Shown here piece after piece: positions 6,192 to 35,341 of a stretch of DNA of 64,000 bases; position 1 is the first letter of the stretch, and every line of letters begins with the position of its first letter. The notes below the pieces were generated by a model. That model searched no databases. It was given only the letters and a program-made list of their open reading frames with translations, and had not been told where the DNA came from. The translations under genes were made by a program, and so were the position numbers. The stretch is from Lachnospiraceae bacterium (GTDB lineage: Bacteria; Bacillota; Clostridia; Lachnospirales; Lachnospiraceae): assembly GCA_017618195.1 (NCBI GenBank), contig JAFZUW010000005.1, positions 31,752 to 95,751 of the forward strand, given 5' to 3'.

Positions 6192-7235
6192 TTAATCTTC
6201 GTGTTTGATCACCGCAAGCAGACGGTCTCGAACGCCGTCCATCCGTGCATCGGAGATGCCGAAATCCATTCTGCGGTAGCTCCACGCGGCGGAACCGATC
6301 GCATAGCGGCGCATCGTTTTATGGAAGGCGCGGTACCAAAGCAGAGCCTCCTCCGGATCCACACGGTCGATTACGCCGTATTCGCCGCAATAGAGCGGAA
6401 CGTTGCGCTCTTCGGCAACGGCGATGGCATCATGAAACAGCGCTTCAAAATAATTCTCGTCGGGTACGGCGTTTTGATCGAAGCGGTCGAAGGACGCGGA
6501 AAATGCGGCGCCGAGCTGCTCGACACTCTTCTTTGCGTATTCGGAGTAAGGCATCTCAAACGGGCAGCGGAACGACGGATCCATCGATGCGATCCAAGTA
6601 GCGCCCTGATGCGTAAACAAAAGCGGCTCGTAGCAATGGAAGTTGTAAATGATGTGCTCGTCCTGCGGAGCGGCAAGGTCGCGAACGGCTTCAACGCTGT
6701 TGTTGTAATATCCGCCGACAAGAACGGAAATGTCGGGAGCAATCTTTCGGATTCTCCTGATGCATGTGTCCGCGATGCGGTTCCATGCTTCGCAGTACTC
6801 CTTGGCGGTAACCTCGTTCAGAAGCTCGAACGCGAGGCAGTCCTTTTCCTTTCCGTAACGCTTCGCGAGTTCGTCCCAGATCCGGTAGAAGGTTTCCTGG
6901 CACTCCGGAAGTTCGAACAGACCGTTTTCTTTTACGCCCGGGTCAAATGAAAAACCGGGCGTCCGGTGCAGATCAAGGATCATGTTCAGTCCATTTGCCT
7001 TACACTGCGCAATTGCAAAATCGATGTATCCGAAGCCGGATTCGCGGAACGAACCGTCAGCGGAAAGAAACAGATCGTAATCCACGGGAACGCGGACGTG
7101 ATCAAGCCCCCATGCGGCAACCTGACGGAAATCGTCCGGGCCGATAAAGGTGTCATAATGCTCGGTCGTGTGGCGGCACTGAGAAAGCCATCCGCCGAAA
7201 TTAATGCCGTGCTCAAATCCTAACCAATGTCTCAT
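6192..7235 (-). CDS. Glycoside hydrolase family 5 (endoglucanase-type), cytoplasmic
   Basis: 347 residues. Starts with GFEHGINFGGWLSQ, the usual opening strand of the GH5 TIM barrel, then HVRVP (conserved Arg), DLHRTPG, and the acid/base glutamate Glu141 in FELLNEV. HCYEP carries the conserved His/Tyr and Glu285 in YCGEYGV is the nucleophile. There is no signal peptide, so it should act inside the cell on imported cello- or other beta-gluco-oligosaccharides rather than on polymer. It stands alone on the minus strand; GGATATTT-like bases precede the ATG and the upstream region to 7300 lacks a clear promoter. Substrate within GH5 cannot be fixed from sequence. Confidence 0.93.
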   Translation of the reverse strand: MRHWLGFEHGINFGGWLSQCRHTTEHYDTFIGPDDFRQVAAWGLDHVRVPVDYDLFLSADGSFRESGFGYIDFAIAQCKANGLNMILDLHRTPGFSFDPGVKENGLFELPECQETFYRIWDELAKRYGKEKDCLAFELLNEVTAKEYCEAWNRIADTCIRRIRKIAPDISVLVGGYYNNSVEAVRDLAAPQDEHIIYNFHCYEPLLFTHQGATWIASMDPSFRCPFEMPYSEYAKKSVEQLGAAFSASFDRFDQNAVPDENYFEALFHDAIAVAEERNVPLYCGEYGVIDRVDPEEALLWYRAFHKTMRRYAIGSAAWSYRRMDFGISDARMDGVRDRLLAVIKHED

Positions 7236-10727: not shown

Positions 10728-11549
10728 ATGTTTTCATTATGGGGAAAACAAAAAGCCGCATTATTGATCGTCTTTTCAATGATTGCAGGGCTGCTCTGTC
10801 ATTATTCGTCTTTGACGGACAGAGATGCAAAAGGCAGCAGAAGCGTAGACCTTTTGCGGAATTGGTACAAAGTGTACCAGACGGAGGGAAATCCGATTGC
10901 TGCGGATGCAGCAGGTCCCGGCGGTGAATACAGCGGGTGTGATTCATTGAATCCCGGCTCCCAGATATGGGTGATAAAGGGAGTAAAAAACCGGAGAATG
11001 GTTGCCTGCCGTGTGAGCATAGGGTACCGGGCATATAAGGTCTTCAACGGAGTTCGCGCCAATGGGTTTGTTACCGTAGGACATGGTGTCAGAGAGGCCA
11101 GAGACAGCTATGTCTATCGCACTTCGGGCGGAAGCGGTATTATCGGCAGGATTGAGGTATGCAAATACTCCAATCAAGCCGACGCGTCTTTTATATCCTT
11201 GTTAAACCAGAATACCGTGACACAGAAAACACCAAACGGAATATCAATCAGCTCAAATGTGTATAAGGTTAAAAACCATGACAGAGTTTGTATGTATGGG
11301 GGAGTGTCCGGGTACATTCCGAATGTAGAAGTATGCGGTTTTGAAGACGCTGAGTATGACGGCATTACGTTGAAGGATACAATCGTAACCGAGCTGATGT
11401 CTGTTAAAGGTGACAGCGGATCGCCGGTATTCTATAAAAGCGGGTCAACTTATCGGCTGGTCGGTATCGTGGTGGCTGATAATGATATATCGACCGCTAT
11501 TGAACCGGAATCCAGGATCAGGTCCGCCATCGGAGCCATTCCGTATTAA
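10728..11549 (+). CDS. Secreted S1 (trypsin-fold) serine protease, copy 1
   Basis: 273 residues. A signal sequence (KAALLIVFSMIAGLL, residues 9-23) is followed by a short pro-like segment (RSVDLLRNWYKVYQTEGN) and a chymotrypsin-fold domain. The triad is His119 (FVTVGHGV), Asp152 (NQADASFI) and Ser230 (VKGDSGSPVF). The region resembles streptogrisin/alpha-lytic protease-like secreted enzymes of Gram-positives. It is exported and probably acts on the surface or outside. GGAGGGAAGAT precedes the ATG. A paralogue lies 95 bp downstream, with triad residues at nearly the same positions, so this is a tandem duplication. Confidence 0.88.
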   Translation: MFSLWGKQKAALLIVFSMIAGLLCHYSSLTDRDAKGSRSVDLLRNWYKVYQTEGNPIAADAAGPGGEYSGCDSLNPGSQIWVIKGVKNRRMVACRVSIGYRAYKVFNGVRANGFVTVGHGVREARDSYVYRTSGGSGIIGRIEVCKYSNQADASFISLLNQNTVTQKTPNGISISSNVYKVKNHDRVCMYGGVSGYIPNVEVCGFEDAEYDGITLKDTIVTELMSVKGDSGSPVFYKSGSTYRLVGIVVADNDISTAIEPESRIRSAIGAIPY

Positions 11550-11644
11550 CCGGAACGGCTGCTGAACAGTCGGTCAGGTTTATGTGTAAGGTTTCCGTTC
11601 TCGGGTAAAACAATCGTCAAGTGTTGAACGAGAAAGGAGTAAAA

Positions 11645-12475
11645 ATGCAAAGAAATAACAAAAAGAGAGTTACCTCTTTAATTCTTACCTTTTCACTGGT
11701 ACTGGGGCTGCTTGGAACATTGACTGCACTTAAGGCAGGAGGAAAGAATTCCGCCGACAGTCTGAATGTTTTGCAGAAATGGTATTCGGAGTATTCCCAA
11801 ACAGGAAATACCGGAGATGATATTAATCCCGATGCGGACGGAATTGTCCGCCAGCAAAGGACATACTATTTAGGAAACACGGTATGGGTAGTTCAAGGAG
11901 TGAAGAACAAGAGACTGGTGTGCGCCCGTGTAAGTATCGGCTACCGTGCCTACAAGGTTTTCCACGGAAACCGCGCAAACGGTTTTGTAACTGTTGCGCA
12001 TGCTGTGAAGGATTCTTCAGACAATTATCTGTACAGGACTTCGGGAAGAACGGACCAAGTGGGTCGAATTGAAGCATGGAGATATGATAGTTACGCGGAT
12101 GTATCATTTATTTCCGTTAACAGTCAGAAAAACACCATATCGACCAAAACTGCCGGCGGTGTGACCATCAGCCCGACGATCAAAACGGTTAAAGCAGGCG
12201 ATAAAGTCTCGACTTGCGGAGGCGTTTCCGGAACCGTCAATAATAAGATCGTTTATGATGCCAGCAAATCCGCAACTGTGGACGGTCTTTATATGACGGA
12301 TCTCATCAGAACCGCATGCATGTCCAAGGCAGGCGACAGCGGTGCTCCGGTATACTACAAGAACGGTTCCAAATATCTGTTGGTCGGCATTATAGTAGGC
12401 GGTGATCTGCGGGATTACACATTTGTCGAGAAAGCAGCAAATCTTAAGAGCAGATTCGGTGTAACGCCTTACTGA
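11645..12475 (+). CDS. Secreted S1 (trypsin-fold) serine protease, copy 2
   Basis: 276 residues, paralogous to the gene before it. Signal sequence at residues 9-30 (VTSLILTFSLVLGLLGTLTAL), then the same DSLNVLQKWYSEYSQTGN pro-like segment. Triad: His119 (FVTVAHAV), Asp152 (YADVSFI), Ser232 (KAGDSGAPVY). The shared block VSIGYRAYKVF.G.RANGFVT is nearly identical in both copies, while substrate-pocket regions and the C-terminus differ, as expected of duplicates drifting to different targets. ATG 11645 is preceded by AAAGGAG; an in-frame TTG at 11621 is not needed. It is followed after 40 bp by a lipoprotein gene, probably in one operon. Confidence 0.88.
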   Translation: MQRNNKKRVTSLILTFSLVLGLLGTLTALKAGGKNSADSLNVLQKWYSEYSQTGNTGDDINPDADGIVRQQRTYYLGNTVWVVQGVKNKRLVCARVSIGYRAYKVFHGNRANGFVTVAHAVKDSSDNYLYRTSGRTDQVGRIEAWRYDSYADVSFISVNSQKNTISTKTAGGVTISPTIKTVKAGDKVSTCGGVSGTVNNKIVYDASKSATVDGLYMTDLIRTACMSKAGDSGAPVYYKNGSKYLLVGIIVGGDLRDYTFVEKAANLKSRFGVTPY

Positions 12476-13363: not shown

Positions 13364-13392
13364 TTGACATTCCTAATAAAAGGATTTATAAT
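13364..13392 (+). promoter_or_regulatory. Consensus SigA promoter driving the T-box leader
   Basis: TTGACA (13364-13369), 17-bp spacer, TATAAT (13387-13392): a perfect consensus. Transcription should begin near 13399, at the foot of the T-box Stem I. Confidence 0.95.
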
Positions 13393-13398
13393 GTGCCT

Positions 13399-13680
13399 AA
13401 TTTACAACTTCATATCGTTCAAAGGCTGTGACGAAGACGGTCTCGCGAATGCACTTTCAGAGAGTCGGTGGCTGGTGTGAACCGACATTGCGGAACGAAT
13501 CGACCTATCCCTTCCGAGCTGAAGGTCTGAACTTCGAAAGAAAAGTAGGAACTTCCGTATTTGCCGCGTCAAGGCATAGGATTTGTTGGAATCCGAAGAG
13601 TGGCGTACAGTGTACGCAAGTTGAGTGGTACCGCGGGTGAAAGGCTCGTCTCAAACAATCGTTTGGGACGGGCATTTTTT
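13399..13680 (+). promoter_or_regulatory. T-box leader (tRNA-sensing riboswitch) with terminator
   Basis: Visible landmarks in order: lower Stem I strands CTTCA/TGAAG and AAGG/CCTT, the apical AG-bulge motif CAGAGAG then CGGTGGCTGGTGTGAACCG (13458-13485), a K-turn-like CCGAGC at 13514-13519, an AAGTAGGAAC Stem III area, and the T-box itself AGTGGTACCGCGG at 13624-13636. A 13-bp terminator stem (13644-13656 with 13661-13673) and a T run follow. TGGT in the T-box should pair with a tRNA ending ACCA, so discriminator A; that disfavours Ser, Trp, Gly and Cys. The specifier is not certain: CTATC at 13505-13509, just above the AAGG/CCTT helix, allows ATC (Ile) or TAT (Tyr). When the matching tRNA is uncharged, the acyl-CoA synthetase gene is switched on. 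Confidence 0.93.
13644..13680 (+). terminator. Conditional terminator of the T-box leader
   Basis: GCTCGTCTCAAAC / GTTTGGGACGGGC stem (13 bp with G-U pairs), AATC loop, then ATTTTTT. It competes with the antiterminator containing the T-box at 13624-13636. Confidence 0.92.
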
Positions 13681-13773
13681 ATTGTCCGGGCGCGGACGGA
13701 CCGGAATACCGGACCGGAACCGCAGCCGATCGATTACAGCCTTTCAATAATACACCAAAGGAGTAAAAGATTT

Positions 13774-16041
13774 ATGAGCGACAACATGGACCTGAAATTG
13801 CAGGAAGTTGCATCACGTATCCGCGAGATGCGTGAGATCGCAGGATTCACCGAAGGTGAGATGGCGGAGAAGACCGATGTCAGCACGGAAGAGTACGCAA
13901 TGTACGAAGCCGGAAAAACCGATATGCCGTTCACCTTTATTCACAAGTGCGCGCTCGCATTCGGCGTTGAAATGTCCGCGCTTCTTGAAGGACATACGGC
14001 CAAACTGACGAGTTACACGGTTACGAGAAAAGGACAGGGACAGATCACTTCCGAAGAGGAAGGCATCCTGATCAAGAACCTGGCGGCTAATTTCAAGAAG
14101 AGACTGGCGGAGCCGTATTGGGTACGCTATGAGTATTCGGCAGAGCAGCAGAAGAAGCCGATTCATCTTACGAAGCACAGCGGCCAGGAATTCGATATCG
14201 TCATGAAGGGCTGCTTGAAGGTTCAGGTCGGCGAGCATGTGGAAATCCTTCATGAAGGCGACAGCATCTTCTATAACAGTTCGACGCCTCACGGCATGAT
14301 CGCGATCAACGATCAGGACTGCACGTTTATCGCAGTTGTACTGCCCGGCGAGGACGTTGCCGAGCAGGAAATCGTCGATACGCTTGTGGAAGGCCGTACC
14401 GCGAAGCGCAGCTTCGTCTGCGACAAATTCATCAAAACCGTTGAGGACGAGAAGGGCCGCCTGAAGTCCATCGATTTCGTAAACGAAGAAAAATTCAACT
14501 TCGCATACGATGTGGTTGACGCAATCGCGAAGAAGAATCCCGAGAAGCTTGCGATGGTTCATCTGGACCGCGATAAGAACGAGCGCCGTTTCACGTTCCT
14601 TGACATGAGTAAGAAGAGCGGCCAGTGCGCAAACTACTTTAAGTCCCTCGGCATTGAGCCCGGCGACCGCGTAATGCTCGTATTGAAGCGTCATTACCAG
14701 TTCTGGATATGCATGCTTGCACTGCATAAGCTCGGTGCGATCGCGATTCCCGCAACGTATCAGCTTCAGGAGCATGACTTTGAGTACCGCTTTAAGTCTG
14801 CCGGAGTAAAGGCCATCGTATGTACCGGTGACGGCGATACCGCCAACCAGGTTGACCTTGCGGCACCGCGCTGTGATACTTTGATCCACAAGATCGTAGT
14901 CGGCGCTCCGAGAGAGGGCTGGCGCAATTTCGATGAAGAGTATGTAATGTACAGCTCTCATTTCGACCGCGTCGCGAACAGCCCGTGCGGTTCGGACCGT
15001 TTCATCATGTTCTTCACTTCCGGTACGACCGGATATCCGAAGATTGCATGTCATTCCTATAAATACGCCCTCGGTCATTATGTAACCGCGAAGTACTGGC
15101 ATCAGGTTGATCCCGACGGACTGCACCTGACCATTTCCGATACCGGCTGGGGTAAGGCACTCTGGGGCAAGCTGTACGGCCAGTGGCTGTGCGAAGCACC
15201 CGTATTTGTCTACGACTTTGACCGCTTCCATGCGGAGGACATTCTGCCGCTGTTCGCGCAGTATCATATCACGACGTTCTGCGCACCGCCCACAATGTAC
15301 CGCATGCTTATTAAGGAAGATATCAGCAAATACGACCTCAGCTCGATCGTTCACGCAACGACCGCAGGCGAGGCTCTTAACCCCGAGGTTTACAACGTAT
15401 TCAAGGAGAAGACCGGACTCCGTATCCACGAAGGTTTCGGTCAGACTGAGACAACGCTTGTTATCGGTAACCTGTACGGCGAGAAGCGTAAGCTCGGCTC
15501 CATGGGTAAGCCTACGCCGCAGTATCATGTAGACATCCTCGATCCTGACGGAAAGCCCGTACCGGTCGGCGAAAACGGCGAGATCTGCATCTACACGAAT
15601 GAAAAGACGCCTTGCGGATTGTTCCGCGGCTACTATAACGATCCCGAGCGTACGAAGGAAGCATGGCACGACGGAATCTACCACACCGGCGACGTCGCAT
15701 GGAAGGATGAGGACGGCTTCTACTGGTATGTCGGTCGTATCGATGACGTTATCAAATCGTCCGGCTACCGTATCGGACCGTTCGAAATCGAAAGTGTTAT
15801 CATGGAACTTCCGTACGTTCTCGAGTGCGGTGTCAGCGCAGCTCCCGATCCGATCCGCGGACAGGTTGTTAAGGCAAGCATCGTTCTGACGAAGGGCACC
15901 CAGCCGTCCGAGGAACTCAAGAAAGAGATCCAGGACTACGTAAAGAAGCATACGGCACCTTACAAGTATCCTCGTATCGTAGTCTTCATGGACGAACTTC
16001 CGAAGACCATCAGCGGAAAGATTCAGAGAAACAAGTTGTAA
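13774..16041 (+). CDS. HTH-cupin fused to acyl-CoA synthetase (AMP-forming, ACSM type)
   Basis: 755 residues with three parts. Residues 5-65 form an XRE-like helix-turn-helix (VASRIREMREIAGFTEGEMAEKT... region), about 120-195 a cupin (SGQEFDIVMKGCLKVQVGEH, HEGDSIFYNSSTPHGM), and from about 225 an ANL-superfamily ligase: FFTSGTTGYPK near 414, GFGQTETT, YHTGDVAWKDEDG near 636, SSGYRIGPFEIE, and the adenylation lysine in TISGKIQRN near 748. It should activate a carboxylic acid to acyl-CoA with ATP; the closest flavour is the medium-chain/branched-chain ACSM group. HTH-cupin regulators are usually separate proteins, so the fusion is notable. ATG 13774 has AAAGGAG at 13757-13763. T-box control plus the oxidoreductase operon behind it point to amino acid metabolism. 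Confidence 0.92.
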   Translation: MSDNMDLKLQEVASRIREMREIAGFTEGEMAEKTDVSTEEYAMYEAGKTDMPFTFIHKCALAFGVEMSALLEGHTAKLTSYTVTRKGQGQITSEEEGILIKNLAANFKKRLAEPYWVRYEYSAEQQKKPIHLTKHSGQEFDIVMKGCLKVQVGEHVEILHEGDSIFYNSSTPHGMIAINDQDCTFIAVVLPGEDVAEQEIVDTLVEGRTAKRSFVCDKFIKTVEDEKGRLKSIDFVNEEKFNFAYDVVDAIAKKNPEKLAMVHLDRDKNERRFTFLDMSKKSGQCANYFKSLGIEPGDRVMLVLKRHYQFWICMLALHKLGAIAIPATYQLQEHDFEYRFKSAGVKAIVCTGDGDTANQVDLAAPRCDTLIHKIVVGAPREGWRNFDEEYVMYSSHFDRVANSPCGSDRFIMFFTSGTTGYPKIACHSYKYALGHYVTAKYWHQVDPDGLHLTISDTGWGKALWGKLYGQWLCEAPVFVYDFDRFHAEDILPLFAQYHITTFCAPPTMYRMLIKEDISKYDLSSIVHATTAGEALNPEVYNVFKEKTGLRIHEGFGQTETTLVIGNLYGEKRKLGSMGKPTPQYHVDILDPDGKPVPVGENGEICIYTNEKTPCGLFRGYYNDPERTKEAWHDGIYHTGDVAWKDEDGFYWYVGRIDDVIKSSGYRIGPFEIESVIMELPYVLECGVSAAPDPIRGQVVKASIVLTKGTQPSEELKKEIQDYVKKHTAPYKYPRIVVFMDELPKTISGKIQRNKL

Positions 16042-16055
16042 TTAAAGGTACACTG

Positions 16056-16212
16056 CCAAACCCGCGTTTTGTCACGATTGCCGGGAGCGCGTGAAAGCTT
16101 GCTTTCAACGCCTTCCGCAATCGTGGCAAAACAGGGCGGTGACGACAGTTACCGCCCGCCCATGAGCAAAAATGGGACCGAAGGGGAGCATTTTTGCGAA
16201 TGGCGGGTTTGG
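16056..16212 (+). other. Structured intergenic element, four-way-junction-like RNA
   Basis: Four nested helices fill this space almost without gaps. Closing stem 16056-16065 with 16203-16212 (10 bp, perfect). Arm A 16066-16081 with 16117-16132 (16 bp, one G-U), capped by a GCGTGAAAG/CTTTCAACGC hairpin. Arm B 16134-16143 with 16148-16157 (10 bp, one G-U, GACA loop). Arm C from 16158 to 16204: GCC..AT, a tandem GA/GA mismatch, then GCAAAAATG/CATTTTTGC. G-U pairs and tandem G-A mismatches suggest it works as RNA rather than DNA. It lies after the synthetase stop and before the promoter at 16369, so it would be in the 3' part of that transcript or a separate RNA. I do not recognise a known family. 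Confidence 0.6.
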
Positions 16213-16268
16213 AAGACCTAAAAGAAACAAATGTTGATACTATAGAGGACCTGTTCCGGCGGCGCGCC

Positions 16269-16317
16269 CGGGAGCAGGCACAGAGGGGCTTTCCCGCCCC
16301 GGTTGTGCCTGCTCCCG
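16269..16317 (+). other. Second long GC-rich hairpin in the same spacer
   Basis: A perfect 14-bp stem (16269-16282 with 16304-16317) holds an inner GGGGC/GCCCC hairpin with a TTTCCC loop. No T run follows, so it is not a standard intrinsic terminator. Together with the element at 16056-16212 it fills most of the 376-bp spacer 16042-16417. A 69-codon frame crossing this area (16194-16403) has no ribosome site and is set aside. Confidence 0.6.
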
Positions 16318-16368
16318 AGGCAGCCGTTGTCAGCTTGCTTCCGTATGGCTGTTCAGAGACACTTTCTC

Positions 16369-16397
16369 TTGCATTTTCCGGTAGTAAGGGTTATATT
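16369..16397 (+). promoter_or_regulatory. Promoter of the ATPase / oxidoreductase operon
   Basis: TTGCAT (16369-16374), 17-bp spacer, TATATT (16392-16397), 21 bp before the ATPase start. The -35 runs into CATTTTCCG (16372-16380). It means the oxidoreductase genes can be expressed independently of T-box read-through. Confidence 0.7.
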
Positions 16398-16417
16398 TAT
16401 TAGAATAGGGTGATACG

Positions 16418-17089
16418 ATGGATTTTAAGCGTTTGGTGCTCTTTGCGGGGCATTACGGCAGCGGTAAAACGAATATTGCGGTCAATATGGCAATCGACCT
16501 CAAAAAAGAGGGGAAGAATGTCGTCATTGCGGATCTCGATATCGTGAATCCGTACTACCGGACGAAGGACAGCGAGCAGGAACTTGAGGCGGCGGGAATT
16601 CCGCTGATCAGTTCCGAATACGCGAATTCGAACGTCGATGTGCCGGCGCTTCCGCAGGCCCTTTATTCCCTGGTCGATCAGAAGGATCGTTACGGGATCA
16701 TGGATATCGGCGGTGACGACCGCGGCGCTCTGGCGCTCGGGAGGTATGCTCCGGCAATTCTTGAGGAGAACAACTACGAAATGCTCCTCGTCATCAACAA
16801 GTATCGTCCGCTGACTCCGGATGCGGCAAGCACTCTGGAGGTCATGCGTGAGATAGAAATCGCGGGCGGGATTCCGTTCACCGGGATTGTGAACAACTCA
16901 AATCTCGGAAGGGAGACGACCGCGGAAGATGTTATCAAAACCCATGCCTACGCCATGGAAATGGCTGAGGACACGGGGCTGCCGCTTCGGATGACGACCG
17001 TCAGGGACGACATCGCGGAAGAGGTGGCCAAAGTAATTCCGAATGTCGTACCGTTACGGTTGCAGAACAAACGGCTTTGGAATGACTGA
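16418..17089 (+). CDS. MinD/CobQ-type P-loop ATPase
   Basis: 223 residues. A deviant-free Walker A GHYGSGKT (residues 11-18), DLDIVNPYYRT just after the first strand pair (the switch area of MinD/ArsA-like proteins), IMDIGGDDRGALALGRY as the Walker B-like strand, and NKYRPLT as the base-recognition-like NKxD analogue. It belongs to the SIMIBI class; members next to iron-sulfur enzymes can act in cluster or cofactor handling, but a role here is inference. It is the first gene of the operon with the ferredoxin and three core oxidoreductase subunits, 61 bp before the ferredoxin gene. Confidence 0.82.
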   Translation: MDFKRLVLFAGHYGSGKTNIAVNMAIDLKKEGKNVVIADLDIVNPYYRTKDSEQELEAAGIPLISSEYANSNVDVPALPQALYSLVDQKDRYGIMDIGGDDRGALALGRYAPAILEENNYEMLLVINKYRPLTPDAASTLEVMREIEIAGGIPFTGIVNNSNLGRETTAEDVIKTHAYAMEMAEDTGLPLRMTTVRDDIAEEVAKVIPNVVPLRLQNKRLWND

Positions 17090-17150
17090 GACGTACATGC
17101 ATGGCATTTTCCATTGCGGAAGATGTGATTTAAGTTACAGGAGGTAGGAA

Positions 17151-17360
17151 ATGAACAAAGTAACGTTCAACACGGACCTTTGTAAAGGCTGCGGCCTCTG
17201 CGTAGCAGCCTGCCCGAAGAAGATTCTTCGGATGTCGGAGACGGTCATCAATGCGAAGGGCCATCATCCGGCGGAAATGACCGACCAGTCCCAGTGTATC
17301 GCGTGTGCTTTCTGCGCCACGATGTGCCCGGATTGCGTTATTACGGTGGAAAGGGGTTAA
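17151..17360 (+). CDS. vorD: 2-oxoacid:ferredoxin oxidoreductase, delta (4Fe-4S ferredoxin) subunit
   Basis: 69 residues holding two 4Fe-4S sites: CKGCGLCVAACP (residues 11-22) and CIACAFCATMCP near 46-57. It moves electrons between the TPP-containing core and external ferredoxin. AGGAGGTAGGAA lies before the ATG. It is 4 bp upstream of the alpha subunit, so translation is closely linked. The symbol follows the VOR/KOR-type order ferredoxin-alpha-beta-gamma and could equally be korD. Confidence 0.9.
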   Translation: MNKVTFNTDLCKGCGLCVAACPKKILRMSETVINAKGHHPAEMTDQSQCIACAFCATMCPDCVITVERG

Positions 17361-17364
17361 GAGC

Positions 17365-18432
17365 ATGGCAGATAAAGTATTAATGAAGGGCAATGAAGCC
17401 ATTGCCGAAGCTGCCATTATGGCAGGCTGCCGATTCTATTTCGGCTATCCGATTACGCCCCAGACCGAAGTTGCCGCTTACATGGCAAAGCGTATGCCCA
17501 AGATCGGCGGAACCTTCCTTCAGGCGGAGAGCGAAATTGCAGCGATCAATATGTGTATCGGTGTCGCTTCGACCGGTAAGAGAGTTATGACGAGTTCCAG
17601 TAGCCCCGGAATCTCTCTTAAGGAAGAGGGCATCAGCTACATGGCAGGCTGCGATCTTCCGGCACTGATTGTTAACGTTGAGCGAGGCGGCCCGGGTCTC
17701 GGCGGTATTCAGCCGTCCCAGTCCGATTATTTCCAGGCAACCCGCGGCGGCGGACATGGTGACTATCACCTCTTCGTTGTTGCTCCGGCAAGCGTACAGG
17801 AAATGGTAAGCCTTACCGCTCACGCATTTAACGTAGCGGAGAAATACCGCGTTCCCGCAATGCTTCTTGCCGACGGTACGCTCGGTCAGATGATGGAGCC
17901 CGTTTCCATCGAAGGAATCGTTGTCGAGGATCATGACAAGTCCTGGGCACTCACCGGAACGGACTGCAAGAGAAAGCACAACATTATCAACTCCCTGTCT
18001 CTGCTTCCCGAGGAACTCGAGCAGTGGAACCTGGAGCGTTACAAGAGATACGAGAAGATCGAAGAGAACGAGCCCATGTGGGAAGAGTACATGATGGATG
18101 ACGCAGACGTCTGCGTTGTTGCATTCGGTATCGCATCCCGCGTAAGCCGTAACGCCATCAAGGCTGCACGTGCGCAGGGCATCAAGGTCGGCATGATCCG
18201 TCCGATCACCCTGTGGCCGTTCCCGAAGAAGCCTCTCGCAGCTGCTGCGGACAAGGTTAAGTCCTTCGTAACCGTTGAACTTAATATGGGCCAGATGGTT
18301 GAGGACGTTGAGCTTGCTACCCGCTGCAAGAAGCCGGTTCTTATGGCTAACCGCGTAGGCGGATGTATCCCGACTCCCGAGCAGGTACTTGCTCAGATTG
18401 TCGAAGCCAATAAGTTAGGAGGTGCACAGTAA
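17365..18432 (+). CDS. vorB: 2-oxoacid:ferredoxin oxidoreductase, alpha subunit (VorB type)
   Basis: 355 residues. MKGNEAIAEAAIMAGCRFYFGYPITPQTE is split over residues 7-35 and is the hallmark start of the VorB/KorA/PorA subunit, followed by FLQAESEIAAINM, TSSSSPGISLKEEGISY, RGGPGLGGIQPSQSDYFQATRGGGHGDY (in pieces) and a C-terminal AFGIASRVSRNA domain-II strand. Length and wording match the group called 3-methyl-2-oxobutanoate dehydrogenase subunit VorB. Substrates may be branched-chain 2-oxoacids or 2-oxoglutarate; sequence alone does not decide. ATG 17365 is chosen (GGGG at 17353-17356); the longer frame overlaps the ferredoxin gene. The stop shares one base with the beta start. Confidence 0.92.
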   Translation: MADKVLMKGNEAIAEAAIMAGCRFYFGYPITPQTEVAAYMAKRMPKIGGTFLQAESEIAAINMCIGVASTGKRVMTSSSSPGISLKEEGISYMAGCDLPALIVNVERGGPGLGGIQPSQSDYFQATRGGGHGDYHLFVVAPASVQEMVSLTAHAFNVAEKYRVPAMLLADGTLGQMMEPVSIEGIVVEDHDKSWALTGTDCKRKHNIINSLSLLPEELEQWNLERYKRYEKIEENEPMWEEYMMDDADVCVVAFGIASRVSRNAIKAARAQGIKVGMIRPITLWPFPKKPLAAAADKVKSFVTVELNMGQMVEDVELATRCKKPVLMANRVGGCIPTPEQVLAQIVEANKLGGAQ

Positions 18433-19190
18433 TGGGTGAGATCGTATTTCAGAAACCGAAGTCACTGTGTGACGTTCCGCTTCATTATTGTCCCGGCTGC
18501 ACGCACGGTATCGTGCATCGTCTCGTTGCGGAAGCAATCGACGAGCTCGGCATTGAGGGCAAGACCATCGGCGTAGCCAGCGTAGGCTGCTCCGTATTTA
18601 CCTACAACTATTTTGAGTGTGATATGGTTCAGGCCGCACACGGACGTGCTCCGGCAGTTGCTACCGGCGTAAAGAGAAGCGATCCCTCTAAGATCGTATT
18701 CACGTACCAGGGCGACGGCGACCTTGCTTCCATCGGTACCGCAGAGACCGTTCATTCGGCTGCACGTAACGAGAACATCACCATTATCTTCATCAACAAC
18801 GCGATTTACGGTATGACCGGCGGACAGATGGCGCCCACCTCCCTTCCGGGACAGGTAACCCAGACCTCTCCTTACGGCCGTGACGTTAACACCGTAGGTT
18901 ATCCGGTACGCATCTGTGAGATGCTTTCCCAGCTGGAAGGACCGACCTACCTTGAGCGTGTTGCCGTTAACAACGTAAAGAACGTTAAGGCTGCCAAGAA
19001 GGCCATCAAGAAGGCCTTCCAGAATCAGGTAGAGGGCAAGGGCTTCTCCCTGATCGAAGTTGTTTCCACCTGCCCGACCAACTGGGGTAAGACTCCCGAG
19101 AAGGCTATGGAGTGGCTTGAAGAGAACATGCTTCCTTACTATCCGCTCGGCGTTTACAAGGATAAGACTGCGGCAAAGGAGGACAAATAA
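18432..19190 (+). CDS. vorA: 2-oxoacid:ferredoxin oxidoreductase, beta (TPP-binding) subunit
   Basis: 252 residues. HYCPGCTHGIVHRL near residue 16 begins the domain; VASVGCSVF and the thiamine pyrophosphate motif QGDGDLASIGTAETVHSAARNEN...NNAIYGMTGGQM (GDG to NN spacing of about 30 residues) define a TPP-binding beta subunit. It performs decarboxylation or, in reverse, carboxylation at TPP with CoA. Start ATG 18432 overlaps the alpha stop by one base (TAATG), with AGGAGG at 18418-18423. Gamma subunit follows directly. Confidence 0.93.
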   Translation: MGEIVFQKPKSLCDVPLHYCPGCTHGIVHRLVAEAIDELGIEGKTIGVASVGCSVFTYNYFECDMVQAAHGRAPAVATGVKRSDPSKIVFTYQGDGDLASIGTAETVHSAARNENITIIFINNAIYGMTGGQMAPTSLPGQVTQTSPYGRDVNTVGYPVRICEMLSQLEGPTYLERVAVNNVKNVKAAKKAIKKAFQNQVEGKGFSLIEVVSTCPTNWGKTPEKAMEWLEENMLPYYPLGVYKDKTAAKEDK

Positions 19191-19191
19191 T

Positions 19192-19731
19192 ATGGCACAG
19201 ACCGGTATGCTTTTTGCAGGTTTCGGCGGACAGGGTATCCTCTTCTCCGGCAAATTCTGCGCTTACGACGGACTGATCTCCGATAAGCAGGTCAGCTGGC
19301 TTCCTTCCTACGGCCCCGAGATGCGCGGAGGTACCGCAAGCTGCAGCGTTGTATTCAGTGATGAGATCATCGGTTCCCCGATCGTTACGAATCCTGACAT
19401 CCTCGTTGTCATGAACCTTCCTTCTTTGGACAAATACGAATCCTCGGTAGTTCCCGGCGGAAAAATCTTCTACGATTCGACGCTGATCGGCCGCAAGGTT
19501 GAAAGAACCGACGTAACGGCTTACGCAGTTCCGGCAACGAAGCTTGCCGCGGACAACGGAATGCCTACCCTTGCCAACATGATCCTCGTAGGAAAGATGA
19601 TCAAGGAAACCGGTATCATCTCGACCGAGAACATCGACAAGATCATTGACAAGATCGTAAGCGCCCGTCATCAGGACCTCAAGGAACTGAATGCGAAAGC
19701 AATCAAGATGGGATTTGACTACGCTGAGTAA
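19192..19731 (+). CDS. vorC: 2-oxoacid:ferredoxin oxidoreductase, gamma subunit
   Basis: 179 residues. [18 protein letters not shown] (residues 5-22), [28 protein letters not shown] and NLPSLDKY are conserved in the gamma domain of pyruvate/2-oxoacid:ferredoxin oxidoreductases, which helps bind CoA. AAGGAGGACA precedes ATG 19192, one base after the beta stop. The four subunits are complete and in frame, so the enzyme should be functional. A strong terminator closes the operon at 19753-19785. Confidence 0.93.
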
Positions 19732-19752
19732 CCACGTATCATAAAGACTGAC

Positions 19753-19785
19753 ACAGACCGGAGGGAATTCCTCCGGTCTGTTTTT
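19753..19785 (+). terminator. Rho-independent terminator of the oxidoreductase operon
   Basis: ACAGACCGGAG / CTCCGGTCTGT stem with a short GGAATT loop, then TTTTT. Confidence 0.93.
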
Positions 19786-22931: not shown

Positions 22932-24536
22932 TTATGCGAAGTAAGCAAATACAAGTGCCGTGATGGAGTTCCAATAAATCGCGATCTCGTTGGTGGAGAA
23001 GGATTCCACTTCATCAAGGTGGCACAGAAGCGGCGGCGTTCCTTCGGGAATCGCAGCCTTGGCCGGAGGATCGTAGACGCGAGCGCTCGGTCCGCCGGAA
23101 ACAAGTCCCGGGAACGGTTCGTCCACGCCGTCGCTGGCGGTCGGACGATTGTGCGGGTTCCGGAACGGATGGGAACCGTGTCCGGTAATGTAGCTCCGGT
23201 TCAGCGGGTTGCGACCGAGCAGATAGTGCACATTTTCCTCAGCCGCCGACGCATATGCGGGGTTGCCGGTAAGGAAGGAGGCAACAAGCAGCGCCGCGGA
23301 GCAGTCCATGACAACCATGTTGCTTCCCCATACAAAGCCGTCAAGAGGCATTGCAAGACGGTAGCCGTTCTCCGAGGTAAGAGCCATTAAGGAATCAGCG
23401 CGCTTGCGGAATGCATCCGAGAAAGCAATAAAGAGTTCGTCCGGGAACGTATCGGAGGGGGCAAATAACACGCTCAGACCGGCAAAGCCGCCGACCTGCC
23501 CCCAGCCGAGAGTCGTCTTGTCGATATCGGTCGCGGCAAGTTTCGTGAGTTCCGCCAGATCACGCACGTCACCGTTCAGACGGTAGAGCTCTGCGTACAT
23601 CCACATGCGTTCGTCACGGTCGTCTCTGTCCCAGTAACCGCCGGTGTAATTTCCGGGAGGATTGCGGAAATCAATCAGGTCCGGATGAGCATATAAAAAT
23701 TCTCTCGCGGAAAGTGCCGCAGCGCGCAGTCTGGCGGCAAATGCGGAATCGTAACGCCGGAAAATCCGAGATGCGAGTGCCGTTACAGCGGCAAAGTCGG
23801 CCGTCGCCATGGAGGAGATCGGATAGAGGATCATCTGGTCCTTGTCCTCCTCGGGCATAACGAACCCGGCGAATCGTTCGGTAGTAAGTTTGTGATAGAC
23901 GCTTCCGTCGGAAGCCTGCATCTTAAGGAGCCACTCGAGTTCGTAGCGGCATTCGTTTAATATATCGGGAACGCCGTTGCCGCTCTCGGGAATGAGGAGC
24001 GTGGGGCATTTGACCGAGAATAATTCATAAGTATAAAGAAGGTGACCGAGGGTAACGGCGCCCGGAGTCGTATAGCGGCCGTAGTCGCCGGCATCGTGCC
24101 AGCCGCCCGTCATCGGCGGGAGCATCGCCTGATCGTCATAGCGGAGTGTCTTTCCGGCGTGGCAGCAGCGGTGATGATAAGGACCCGCATACTTCTCGGG
24201 AAGCTCGCAGCCGCAGCGCATGAAATAAAACATGTGGACCAGATCTTCGAAAACTTTACGGTAAACGGTCGGAGAAATAAGGAAGGAATCCGAACGGCTA
24301 CAATCGTAGTATTCGATAAAATATAGGCCTTCCTCGGAAACCTTGCTGAAATCGGCCGAATAGAGCGTCTCACCGGAGTAAGAATCCTTACCAAACGCGG
24401 AAACAGACAGTTCTACTCTTGTAGAATCGGATTCTTTCACAAGATAAACGGGGCCGTTGACGGGTTCGTCGCCGGCCAGAATTGCAACTTTGACGTCATC
24501 GGGGCGATACCCGAGCTGATCGACATGAATCTTCAT
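22932..24536 (-). CDS. Glycoside hydrolase family 9 (cellulase-type) with N-terminal Ig-like domain, cytoplasmic
   Basis: 534 residues. Residues 1-95 (KIHVDQLGYRPDDVKVAIL start) are the CelD_N immunoglobulin-like domain found before GH9 modules. The catalytic (alpha/alpha)6 barrel has GGWHDAGDYGRY near 143-154, with the two base aspartates in DAGD, HPFRNPHNRP near the substrate histidine/arginine motif, and the acid Glu517 in FSTNEIAIYWNS. No signal peptide, carbohydrate-binding module or dockerin is present. It should cleave imported beta-glucans or cello-oligosaccharides inside the cell, like the GH5 at 6192. GGAGG precedes the ATG (AAAGGAGGTTACG). Confidence 0.94.
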   Translation of the reverse strand: MKIHVDQLGYRPDDVKVAILAGDEPVNGPVYLVKESDSTRVELSVSAFGKDSYSGETLYSADFSKVSEEGLYFIEYYDCSRSDSFLISPTVYRKVFEDLVHMFYFMRCGCELPEKYAGPYHHRCCHAGKTLRYDDQAMLPPMTGGWHDAGDYGRYTTPGAVTLGHLLYTYELFSVKCPTLLIPESGNGVPDILNECRYELEWLLKMQASDGSVYHKLTTERFAGFVMPEEDKDQMILYPISSMATADFAAVTALASRIFRRYDSAFAARLRAAALSAREFLYAHPDLIDFRNPPGNYTGGYWDRDDRDERMWMYAELYRLNGDVRDLAELTKLAATDIDKTTLGWGQVGGFAGLSVLFAPSDTFPDELFIAFSDAFRKRADSLMALTSENGYRLAMPLDGFVWGSNMVVMDCSAALLVASFLTGNPAYASAAEENVHYLLGRNPLNRSYITGHGSHPFRNPHNRPTASDGVDEPFPGLVSGGPSARVYDPPAKAAIPEGTPPLLCHLDEVESFSTNEIAIYWNSITALVFAYFA

Positions 24537-29662: not shown

Positions 29663-29736
29663 AGCATACAAGGTTTTGTAAGATATCATGTCCTGCCGGA
29701 GTGTGTCCGGTTTGTGACAGTTTCAGGAGAAGGAAA

Positions 29737-30624
29737 ATGTATCGTATTATTTCGAAAGAAGAGCCCGCAGCCAACATCTTCACGATGGTTGTGGAAGCGC
29801 CCCGTGTGGCGAAGAACTGCCTTCCGGGACAGTTCATTATCCTGCGTGTCGATGAGGAAGGCGAGCGTATTCCGCTTACCATTTGCGACTATGACCGCGA
29901 AGCCGGAACCATCACGATCGTATTTCAGATTGTCGGAGCGACGAGCCTTCGTCTTTCCGAGCTGAACGAGGGTGATGAGCTGGCGGATTTCGTAGGACCT
30001 CTCGGCAAGCCGTCCGAGTTCTGCGAGACCCCGATTGAAGAACTGAAGAAGAAAAGCATTCTCTTCGTGGCAGGAGGCGTCGGAACCGCTCCCGTATATC
30101 CGCAGGTCAAATGGCTGAAGGAGCAGGGGGTTCCGTCGGAAGTCATCATCGGAGCGAAGAATAAGAGCTTCGTCATTCTCGAGGAAGAGATGAAGAAGGT
30201 TGCTGCCGAAGTTTACGTAACGACCGATGACGGATCGTACGGCCGGAGCGGCATGGTTACGAAGTGCATCGAGGATCTGATTGCCGAAGGAAAGCATTAT
30301 GATGTGTGTGTTGCGATCGGACCGATGATCATGATGAAATTCTGCGCGCTGACGACCAAGAAGTACGGGATCAAGACGGTAGTGTCGATGAACCCGATCA
30401 TGGTCGACGGAACGGGCATGTGCGGCGGATGCCGGCTGATGGTCGGCGGCGAGGTGAAATTTGCCTGCGTGGACGGACCGGAGTTCGACGGACATCTCGT
30501 GGACTTTGACCAGGCCATGAAGCGTTCCGCACAGTACAAGACTGCGGAAGGCCGCGCATATCTGAAGGAACAGGAAGGCAATACGCACCACGGCGGCTGC
30601 GGAAACTGCGGAGGTGACAAGTGA
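29737..30624 (+). CDS. nfnA: NADH/ferredoxin-NADP reductase subunit NfnA (FAD/NAD-binding)
   Basis: 295 residues. A ferredoxin-reductase fold: PGQFIILRVDEEGERIPLTICD (in the FAD-binding barrel, RxPL-T motif), FVAGGVGTAPVYPQVKWLKE for NAD(H), and a C-terminal GTGMCGGCRLMVGGEVKFACVDGPEFDGH that binds a 2Fe-2S cluster (C..C..C and a final CGNC region). Annotation pipelines often call it sulfide/dihydroorotate dehydrogenase-like. With NfnB it forms the flavin-bifurcating transhydrogenase that couples NADH and reduced ferredoxin to NADPH. AGGAGAAGGAAA before ATG 29737. Its TGA overlaps the NfnB start. Confidence 0.92.
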   Translation: MYRIISKEEPAANIFTMVVEAPRVAKNCLPGQFIILRVDEEGERIPLTICDYDREAGTITIVFQIVGATSLRLSELNEGDELADFVGPLGKPSEFCETPIEELKKKSILFVAGGVGTAPVYPQVKWLKEQGVPSEVIIGAKNKSFVILEEEMKKVAAEVYVTTDDGSYGRSGMVTKCIEDLIAEGKHYDVCVAIGPMIMMKFCALTTKKYGIKTVVSMNPIMVDGTGMCGGCRLMVGGEVKFACVDGPEFDGHLVDFDQAMKRSAQYKTAEGRAYLKEQEGNTHHGGCGNCGGDK

Positions 30625-32015
30625 TGGGTGATCCGATGAAGAAGGTTCCGGTTCGGGAACAGGACGCGAAAGAGCGTGCGAAGAATTTCCGCGAGGTTTG
30701 TCTCGGATATAACGCCGAAGAAGCCGTCAATGAAGCACAGCGATGCCTCACCTGTAAGAAGCCTCTCTGCGTGGAAGGCTGTCCGGTTAACATCAACATC
30801 CCCGGTTTCATTTCCTACGTAAAGACCGGTGAGTTTGATAAGGCATATGCCGTGATCAGTCAGTCGAGTTCGCTGCCGTCGGTATGCGGCCGAGTATGTC
30901 CGCAGGAGCGTCAGTGCGAAGGCAAATGTATCCGCGGCATCAAAGGCGAGTCGATTGCCATCGGTAAGCTCGAGCGGTTCGTCGGGGATACCGCAAGAGC
31001 GGAAGGTTGGACGCCTTCTACAGAAGTAGAACCAAATGGACACAAGGTTGCCGTGATCGGCTCCGGACCTGCCGGACTGACCTGCGCGGGCGATCTTGCG
31101 AAGCTCGGATACAGCGTGACGATATTCGAAGCGCTCCATAAACCGGGCGGAGTACTCGTATACGGTATCCCGGAATTCCGTCTTCCGAAGGATGACGTCG
31201 TTATTCCGGAGATTGAAAATATCAAGAAGCTCGGCGTGAAGATCGAGACCAATGTCATCGTCGGAAAGTCCGTAACCATCGACCAGCTCATCAATGACGA
31301 AGGCTTCGAAGCCGTATTTGTCGGCTCGGGTGCCGGACTTCCGAAGTTCATGGGCATTCCGGGAGAGCAGGCGAACGGCGTATTTTCCGCCAATGAGTAC
31401 TTGACGAGAAGCAACCTGATGAAGGCATATCAGGATGATTCCGATACGCCGATCATGCGCGCTAAATGTGTTGCCGTAATCGGCGGCGGAAACGTGGCGA
31501 TGGATGCCGCGAGAACCGCGCTTCGTCTCGGTGCCGAGACACACATCGTTTACAGAAGAAGCGAAGCCGAACTTCCCGCACGTGCCGAAGAAGTGCACCA
31601 CGCGAAAGAGGAAGGCATCATCTTCGATCTGCTGTGCAATCCCGAGGAGATTCTTGTGGATGAGACCGGCTGGGTAAGCGGAATCCGCTGCGTACGGATG
31701 GAACTCGGCGAGCCCGACGCGTCCGGCCGCCGCAGACCGGTTGAGATTCCCGGCTCCCAGTTCGTAATCGACGTCGACATGGTGATTATGGCGCTCGGAA
31801 CGAGCCCGAACCCGCTTCTTGTAAGCACGACCAAGGGCATGGATGTGAACCGCCACGGCGGACTCATCATCAACGAGGAGTCGTGCATGACGACGAGAGA
31901 CGGCGTATTTGCCGGCGGCGATGCCGTTACCGGCGCAGCAACCGTAATCCTCGCGATGGGCGCGGGCAAAGCCGCCGCGAAGGGCATCGACGAGTACCTG
32001 AAGGCGAAGGCGTGA
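30624..32015 (+). CDS. nfnB: NADPH-dependent glutamate synthase-like subunit NfnB (GltA)
   Basis: 463 residues. N-terminal 4Fe-4S cysteines CLTCKKPLCVEGCPVNINIPGF and CGRVCPQERQCEGKC, FAD site VAVIGSGPAGLTCAGDLAKLGY, and NADPH site VAVIGGGNVAMDAARTALRLG. FAGGDAVTGAATVILAMGAGK near the end contacts FAD. It is the large subunit of NfnAB and supplies NADPH from NADH plus reduced ferredoxin. GGAGG at 30610-30614 serves ATG 30624 (GTG at 30621 is an alternative); overlap with nfnA shows tight coupling. A terminator follows at 32082. Confidence 0.93.
   Translation: MGDPMKKVPVREQDAKERAKNFREVCLGYNAEEAVNEAQRCLTCKKPLCVEGCPVNINIPGFISYVKTGEFDKAYAVISQSSSLPSVCGRVCPQERQCEGKCIRGIKGESIAIGKLERFVGDTARAEGWTPSTEVEPNGHKVAVIGSGPAGLTCAGDLAKLGYSVTIFEALHKPGGVLVYGIPEFRLPKDDVVIPEIENIKKLGVKIETNVIVGKSVTIDQLINDEGFEAVFVGSGAGLPKFMGIPGEQANGVFSANEYLTRSNLMKAYQDDSDTPIMRAKCVAVIGGGNVAMDAARTALRLGAETHIVYRRSEAELPARAEEVHHAKEEGIIFDLLCNPEEILVDETGWVSGIRCVRMELGEPDASGRRRPVEIPGSQFVIDVDMVIMALGTSPNPLLVSTTKGMDVNRHGGLIINEESCMTTRDGVFAGGDAVTGAATVILAMGAGKAAAKGIDEYLKAKA

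Positions 32016-33964: not shown

Positions 33965-35341
<1,377 letters not shown>

Follow-up and report, generated by a model that had tools for sequence, protein, structure and literature searches.

The T-box riboswitches (RF00230) are leader elements that activate genes when an amino acid is lacking, and the targets known for them, according to the survey texts in so far as these were available, are tRNA ligases together with genes for amino-acid synthesis and transport. Physiological work shows that rumen microbes make branched-chain amino acids out of branched short-chain acids: in rumen cultures, 2-methylbutyrate and isobutyrate are precursors of isoleucine and valine (PMC7356843), and reductive carboxylation is the probable route to isoleucine in Methanobrevibacter ruminantium (PMC2812497). 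In their available parts, neither of these two texts mentions regulation or a matching group of ligases. Enzymes that act on such acids have been described from other settings. Macs, of Methanosarcina acetivorans, uses 2-methylbutyrate (PMC10455477), and purified MbcS of Staphylococcus aureus activates both 2-methylbutyrate and isobutyrate for lipid synthesis (PMC10026030). The present analysis deals with a window of 64,000 nucleotides (the whole stretch of DNA that was analysed, positions 31,752 to 95,751 of contig JAFZUW010000005.1, assembly GCA_017618195.1) from a Lachnospiraceae bacterium, here called the host, in which a T-box leader stands before the gene of an acyl-CoA synthetase (ACS) and a set of 2-oxoacid:ferredoxin oxidoreductase genes.

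This locus very probably serves the starvation-induced synthesis of isoleucine from 2-methylbutyrate by reductive carboxylation, a reading that takes its substrate, its direction of flux and its switching from sequence and gene context. The observations that carry it are the leader and its specifier, the order and conservation of the genes, the enzyme families, the match between codon and pocket residue, and searches that found no ilvC or ilvD. The parts are ordinary; their combination, T-box-addressed acid-activating enzymes that would feed a reductive carboxylation, is new and well supported. Among the matches listed for literature on T-boxes with these acids, acyl-CoA synthetases or ligases, a search whose scope did not extend to supplements, TBDB or other databases, the system is undescribed. 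The term 'CoA' is absent from the main text of the T-box surveys PMC2494555, PMC3766115 and PMC7778990 (supplements and databases lying outside this scope), and neither 'acyl-CoA' nor 'CoA ligase' occurs in the searched text of PMC7583486, supplements again excluded.

In the proposed mechanism, a shortage of isoleucine would allow uncharged tRNA-Ile to base-pair with the leader at its AUC specifier and its UGGU bulge, upon which the antiterminator would form. The ACS gene would then be transcribed, probably together with the oxidoreductase genes downstream. The ACS, a proposed 2-methylbutyrate--CoA ligase, would convert 2-methylbutyrate from the gut or rumen into 2-methylbutyryl-CoA, which the ferredoxin-dependent oxidoreductase would carboxylate reductively to 3-methyl-2-oxopentanoate, and IlvE would form isoleucine from this by transamination. 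In the host, the route would replace the pathway that runs through acetohydroxyacid synthase (AHAS), ketol-acid reductoisomerase (KARI) and dihydroxy-acid dehydratase (DHAD). The features of the locus are as follows.

13364..13392, + strand: sigma-70-type promoter TTGACA-17-TATAAT, 12 of 12 consensus letters (consensus match only)
13419..13656, + strand: T-box leader, from stem I to antiterminator (RF00230, 101.2 bits, E 3.7e-21)
13507..13509, + strand: specifier codon AUC (Ile), followed by one spacer base and the lower stem-I helix CUUC
13624..13636, + strand: T-box core AGUGGUACCGCGG with UGGU bulge (RF00230 match and sequence reading)
13644..13680, + strand: intrinsic terminator, with a stem of 13 pairs at 13644-13673 and then a T-run
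13774..16041, + strand: helix-turn-helix (HTH)-cupin-AMP-binding ACS, 755 aa (Pfam HTH_19, Cupin_2, AMP-binding)
16418..17089, + strand: P-loop ATPase of CbiA/ParA type, first of the oxidoreductase genes (Pfam)
17151..17360, + strand: two-[4Fe-4S] ferredoxin-like subunit, VorD type (open reading frame and cysteine motifs)
17362..18432, + strand: 2-oxoacid:ferredoxin oxidoreductase alpha subunit, VorB type (NF005507, 536 bits, cut-off 399)
18432..19190, + strand: 2-oxoacid:ferredoxin oxidoreductase beta subunit, thiamine pyrophosphate (TPP) type (PF02775; TIGR02177 126 bits, under the cut-off of 262)
19192..19731, + strand: 2-oxoacid:ferredoxin oxidoreductase gamma subunit (PF01558, 118 bits)
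19753..19781, + strand: terminator-like hairpin 3' of the gamma gene, 13 pairs and a T-run

The original prediction had read a T-box from the core AGTGGTACCGCGG at 13624-13636, with a terminator at 13644-13680, and had proposed that the leader be searched against RF00230 and its specifier read. Both elements were borne out. The leader matches the family at 101.2 bits, above the gathering score of 93 bits, and the terminator segment (13642-13690) folds at -21 kcal/mol with a z of -5.3, a value equalled by 0 of 200 shuffles. The family score, a specifier that fits the pathway, the core and the terminator, which together make up the sequence features of a T-box leader, are all present. The leader thus shares stem I, specifier, UGGU bulge and terminator with the described riboswitches and differs from them in its target, an acyl-CoA synthetase.

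The specifier was read by a rule of three codon bases, one spacer and then the lower stem-I helix. A search of the host genome (2.75 Mb in 82 contigs, completeness 98.77) yielded 13 T-boxes, and the rule is correct for six of the seven that precede tRNA-synthetase genes: proS CCC, valS GUA, tyrS UAC, pheS UUC, metG AUG and ileS AUC, the last gene scoring under its cut-off owing to a truncated stretch. At both tryptophan genes of the host the rule yields UGG. For comparison between genomes, the best 80 loci of 331 relatives found were used. A T-box core lies upstream of the ACS in 76 of them, with ATC as specifier in 75 and GTA in one; a further locus (L081) adds a variant core with ATC, and the remaining three (L039, L082, L083) have no T-box core within the 600 bases searched, another ligase gene closely preceding the ACS there. 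Among the 76, the base before the codon is C in 48, T in 26 and A in two, and the base after it is C in 42, A in 33 and G in one. A tyrosine register (UAU, with two spacers) is ruled out, since the preceding base varies and ATC is nearly fixed. The isoleucine specifier that had been suggested for ATC at 13507-13509 is therefore upheld.

The comparison with other T-boxes upstream of acyl-CoA ligases, which had also been proposed, extends this picture to the other branched-chain amino acids. Many relatives carry a second T-box before a second HTH-cupin-ACS (n=35), with the specifier GTA in 29, GTC in five and CTC in one, so that 34 of 35 are for valine. Approximately 4-5.5 kb upstream, T-boxes before a LeuA-like gene (family membership being tested for one locus, L044) specify leucine in 16 of 16 cases, CTC in 11 and CTG in five; the CTG specifiers of L049, L052 and L060 were read by hand, and in L037, L087 and L091 a further match, unrelated to the first, was disregarded. 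The Rfam model recovers these leaders with varying success. At the gathering score it reports seven of the 21 T-boxes expected from the core search in nine loci. With a threshold of E 1e-5, it reports the full eight that four loci should contain, with 74.5-88.6 bits, all under gathering. Of the 80 ACS loci, 23 also contain a fusion of a TIM barrel with a ligase, the L025 copy being on the opposite strand. The homologue of this fusion in the host (L095:658-3476, contig G000:C28), an 840-aa protein that joins a xylose-isomerase-like TIM barrel to an acyl-CoA ligase, is directly preceded by a Leu (CUC) T-box; its substrate is perhaps isovalerate.

The phylogeny of the ACS follows the codon in the leader. 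In a tree of 119 proteins, 118 of them with a specifier, the 82 isoleucine copies are separated from 35 valine copies and one leucine copy by a branch with a support of 100 in the Shimodaira-Hasegawa-like approximate likelihood ratio test (SH-aLRT). The specifier changes on the tree number two, which is the minimum possible, where shuffles average 31. The tree was built with a quick method and its branches close to the outgroup are long, which makes both the root and the relative order of the isoleucine and valine sets uncertain; it leaves out L031, which has a T-box and was removed by a filter, and the short second open reading frame of L088. Only eight of the 755 positions discriminate between the isoleucine and valine sets, at thresholds of more than 85% and 80% conservation within the sets and a difference between them. 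Within the catalytic domain, residue 460 is the sole such position; it is Gly in 82 of 82 isoleucine copies and Ala in 35 of 35 valine copies. Ala is also found in the leucine-specified copy and in the T-box-free paralogue of the host (on C22). The leucine-specified copy (L054:9570-11557) is a valine-clade ACS with a CTC T-box, and may perhaps reflect a recent change of specifier. The other seven discriminating positions lie in the HTH-cupin part, at window positions 13927-14103, a hint that this part functions in sensing or autoregulation.

The match between codon and residue recurs in a further set of 393 genomes drawn from the class. This set lists 85 ACS places outside the host, of which 84 were analysed: 67 have a T-box core upstream, 15 do not, and two are cut short. 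Codon and residue agree in 67 of 67, as ATC with Gly (49/49) and GTA with Ala (18/18), and 66 of these 67 copies are less than 95% identical to the first set. In this sample, spurious automatic matches at L137 and L208 were settled by stem-anchored reading, and the GTA of L157 was read by hand.

Residue 460 is close to mapped residues of the acyl pocket. It adjoins Lys461, which maps to a pocket lysine of MacsMa, and precedes Trp464 by four residues. The pocket residues of MacsMa include Trp237, Lys256, Cys298 and Gly351. Six mapped pocket positions, among them the Trp preceding residue 460, which was included as a neighbour, are identical in the window ACS and in 82 of 82 isoleucine copies. 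Trp464 maps to Trp259 of MacsMa, which has been reported as critical (PMC10455477). The bulkier Ala at residue 460 would suit isobutyrate and the smaller Gly 2-methylbutyrate.

An archaeal enzyme that prefers 2-methylbutyrate had been named as a lead for the ACS, and comparison strongly supports this lead. The best match in the Protein Data Bank (PDB) is 3ETC, the Macs of M. acetivorans, with 649 bits, the next reaching 350. Macs is thus the closest solved relative by sequence; it shares the mapped pocket residues, and its equivalent of residue 460 is Gly. The alignment spans only ACS residues 233-753, and nothing in 3ETC corresponds to the HTH-cupin part. The best NCBIfam match is MbcS (NF047394), at 443 bits against an equivalog cut-off of 850. 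Although it falls outside that family cut-off, the ACS may work like MbcS, with which it would share its acids; in contrast, MbcS serves membrane lipids and a single enzyme handles both acids.

Behind the ACS, the four subunits of a VorABCD-type enzyme, with putative activity on branched 2-oxoacids, stand together, and the VorB model scores above its cut-off; the NCBIfam models of the beta and gamma subunits score below their cut-offs, with the Pfam models above. VorABCD enzymes are reversible, and their oxidative use is best known. The window set differs from them in an extra P-loop ATPase gene at its head and in a putative biosynthetic use, to which the T-box points. Among relatives, 41 loci extend downstream for 6.8 kb or more, and in all of these but L084 (40 of 41) a VorB-type gene follows in the same orientation. 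The matched stretches of ACS and ATPase are only about 10-70 bases apart in L017, L022, L034, L059, L075 and L077. The CbiA/ParA-type ATPase stands at the head of the oxidoreductase genes in 64 of the 80 loci, many of the remaining loci being cut short.

The earlier account of these genes stands in most respects. The HTH-cupin-ACS lies directly behind the T-box (13774-16041), an 826-aa open reading frame over it being simply a longer open frame, and the ferredoxin-alpha-beta-gamma set is complete at 17151-19731, with the ATPase (16418-17089), previously unmentioned, in addition. A separate oxidoreductase promoter, claimed for 16369, is absent from the consensus scan, which likewise shows no terminator between the ACS and ATPase genes. 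The genes gdhA (33965-35341) and nfnAB (29701-32015), which had been called nearby, are present, but 10-14 kb beyond the oxidoreductase.

The remaining genes of the host bear on the direction of the pathway. KARI (ilvC) and DHAD (ilvD) gave no match in the host genome, each search being positive in 14 of 14 control genomes, and the host has an IlvE_II above cut-off and a LeuA-type synthase. Ligase, oxidoreductase and transaminase, the gene set for reductive carboxylation, are all present, and KARI and DHAD both went unmatched (the search did not extend to ilvA or ilvB). Ten of 150 genomes of the family, the host included, are without KARI. It is absent in seven of the seven with a full-length HTH-cupin-ACS, all of which have an ATC T-box, and in three of the 143 others (Fisher 4e-10). 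Across the class it is absent in 44 of the 53 genomes whose ACS has a T-box and in 124 of 340 others (p 1.4e-10), and among 67 non-host ACS genomes with a readable leader it is absent in 43 of 52 with a T-box and in four of 15 without (p 9e-5), all of these statistics ignoring kinship and coming from draft genomes that may miss genes. A strict association of the T-box with loss of ilvC holds in the family and fails in the class. Genus g205 includes both states, and genus g174 has the ACS without a T-box and keeps KARI. Full-length HTH-cupin-ACS copies without an upstream T-box core occur with KARI in g174 (L176, L178, L179, L182, L183, L185, L186, L187, L189) and without it in g293 (L192, L193, L198). 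The biosynthetic direction that had been proposed is strongly supported, in comparative terms, by the Ile, Val and Leu T-boxes, the failure to find ilvC or ilvD and the presence of IlvE, so that flux towards isoleucine is the probable one.

A number of observations weigh against this interpretation. The specifier loop of the window leader is short and without the usual AGUA element. The one-spacer rule fails for the host thrS, where ACC needs two spacers and the helix was not detected by the script; the base after the window specifier is C, and the UAU of a two-spacer register is excluded by comparison alone. Class-wide, KARI is retained in nine of the 53 genomes that have a T-box before their ACS and is missing from 124 of the 340 remaining ones, which makes the association a tendency. 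The oxidoreductase genes of the window begin 376 bases behind the ACS, they were not found around the ACS in five of six family relatives (one of them, L120, having only 1.6 kb behind the ACS), and the host has six oxidoreductase gamma genes, one other of which adjoins a VorB-like sequence. These last points raise the possibility that the ACS and its isoleucine T-box act as proposed while another oxidoreductase of the host carboxylates, for instance the VorB-like one at C74. The many gamma genes and the lack of VorDBCA in the stretch around the ACS of five family relatives would fit this; VorB-type genes downstream in 40 of 41 wider relatives and the gaps of about 10-70 bases between ACS and ATPase in six relatives' loci tell against it, and we consider it unlikely.

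Other explanations assign the ACS a different purpose. It could supply lipids, making 2-methylbutyryl-CoA (and the valine copy isobutyryl-CoA) as primers of branched membrane lipids, with a shortage of isoleucine signalling depletion of the keto-acid precursor. MbcS is the best NCBIfam match at 443 bits and activates both acids for lipids in S. aureus (PMC10026030), yet the score is far under 850, a ferredoxin oxidoreductase is the conserved neighbour (40/41), the Leu T-box of the cluster controls a LeuA-like amino-acid gene and the host has no KARI or DHAD match, all of which makes lipid supply rather improbable. Breakdown of isoleucine to 2-methylbutyrate for energy would accord with the familiar oxidative use of the reversible VorABCD enzymes. 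However, a T-box activates genes under lack of an amino acid, the Val and Leu sister T-boxes agree with this, and genomes with the system tend to be without KARI, so that catabolism is very improbable. The least credible alternative has the ACS activate propionate, from which the oxidoreductase would yield 2-oxobutyrate for the normal isoleucine pathway. The isoleucine specifier and the propionyl-adenylate synthetase activity of MacsMa (PMC10455477) are compatible with such a route. Since the host gave no match for KARI or DHAD, 2-oxobutyrate would hardly be carried further, and a valine-specified sister with one pocket-residue change better fits 2-methylbutyrate versus isobutyrate. With both of these enzymes unmatched, the simple route to isoleucine is the one that starts from 2-methylbutyrate and passes through 3-methyl-2-oxopentanoate.

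Other T-boxes and genes were encountered in the course of this work. In the host, a Phe (UUC) T-box precedes a phenylacetate-CoA ligase gene (paaK) and an ACT-domain protein (L094:2704-4825, G000:C6; also L004). As a conserved branch this was rejected: the other 29 family loci of paaK type examined have no T-box core with a readable specifier, two of them having less than 400 bases upstream, and the Phe T-box therefore seems local to the host. An ACC (Thr) T-box on the - strand of the host (L098:3399-5500, G000:C49), with a UGGA bulge like that of thrS, has an unexpected target, a 2'-5' RNA ligase-like/GNAT protein together with a methyltransferase. An Asn reading of the T-box at L007 was also rejected, since the helix rule gives ACC (Thr), again with a UGGA bulge like thrS. 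Elsewhere in the window, GH5 and GH9 cellulase genes (6192-7235 and 22932-24536) are consistent with a fibre-degrading gut bacterium, and 10728-12475 encodes two similar-looking tandem proteins, the second alone having a Pfam trypsin-like domain, just below cut-off.

On balance, though with considerable doubt, we think that many gut Clostridia use a codon-addressed system for turning acids into amino acids instead of the classical ilv pathway. Of the duplicated HTH-cupin-ACS, the copy with an Ile T-box would act on 2-methylbutyrate and the one with a Val T-box on isobutyrate, the two differing by a single Gly/Ala change in the pocket and feeding one shared carboxylating oxidoreductase; the codon in the leader would tell the substrate, and the HTH-cupin part possibly adds a second, acid- or acyl-sensing control. 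The reversibility of the oxidoreductases and the difficulty of annotating acyl-CoA synthetases make it hard to assign genes, direction and substrate to such routes. The T-box codon supplies both the direction, since the enzyme is made under lack, and the product for each paralogue. The question thereby becomes testable gene by gene, with a one-residue specificity switch as its prediction, and the answer would correct auxotrophies for branched-chain amino acids that have been assigned to gut Clostridia from their genomes.

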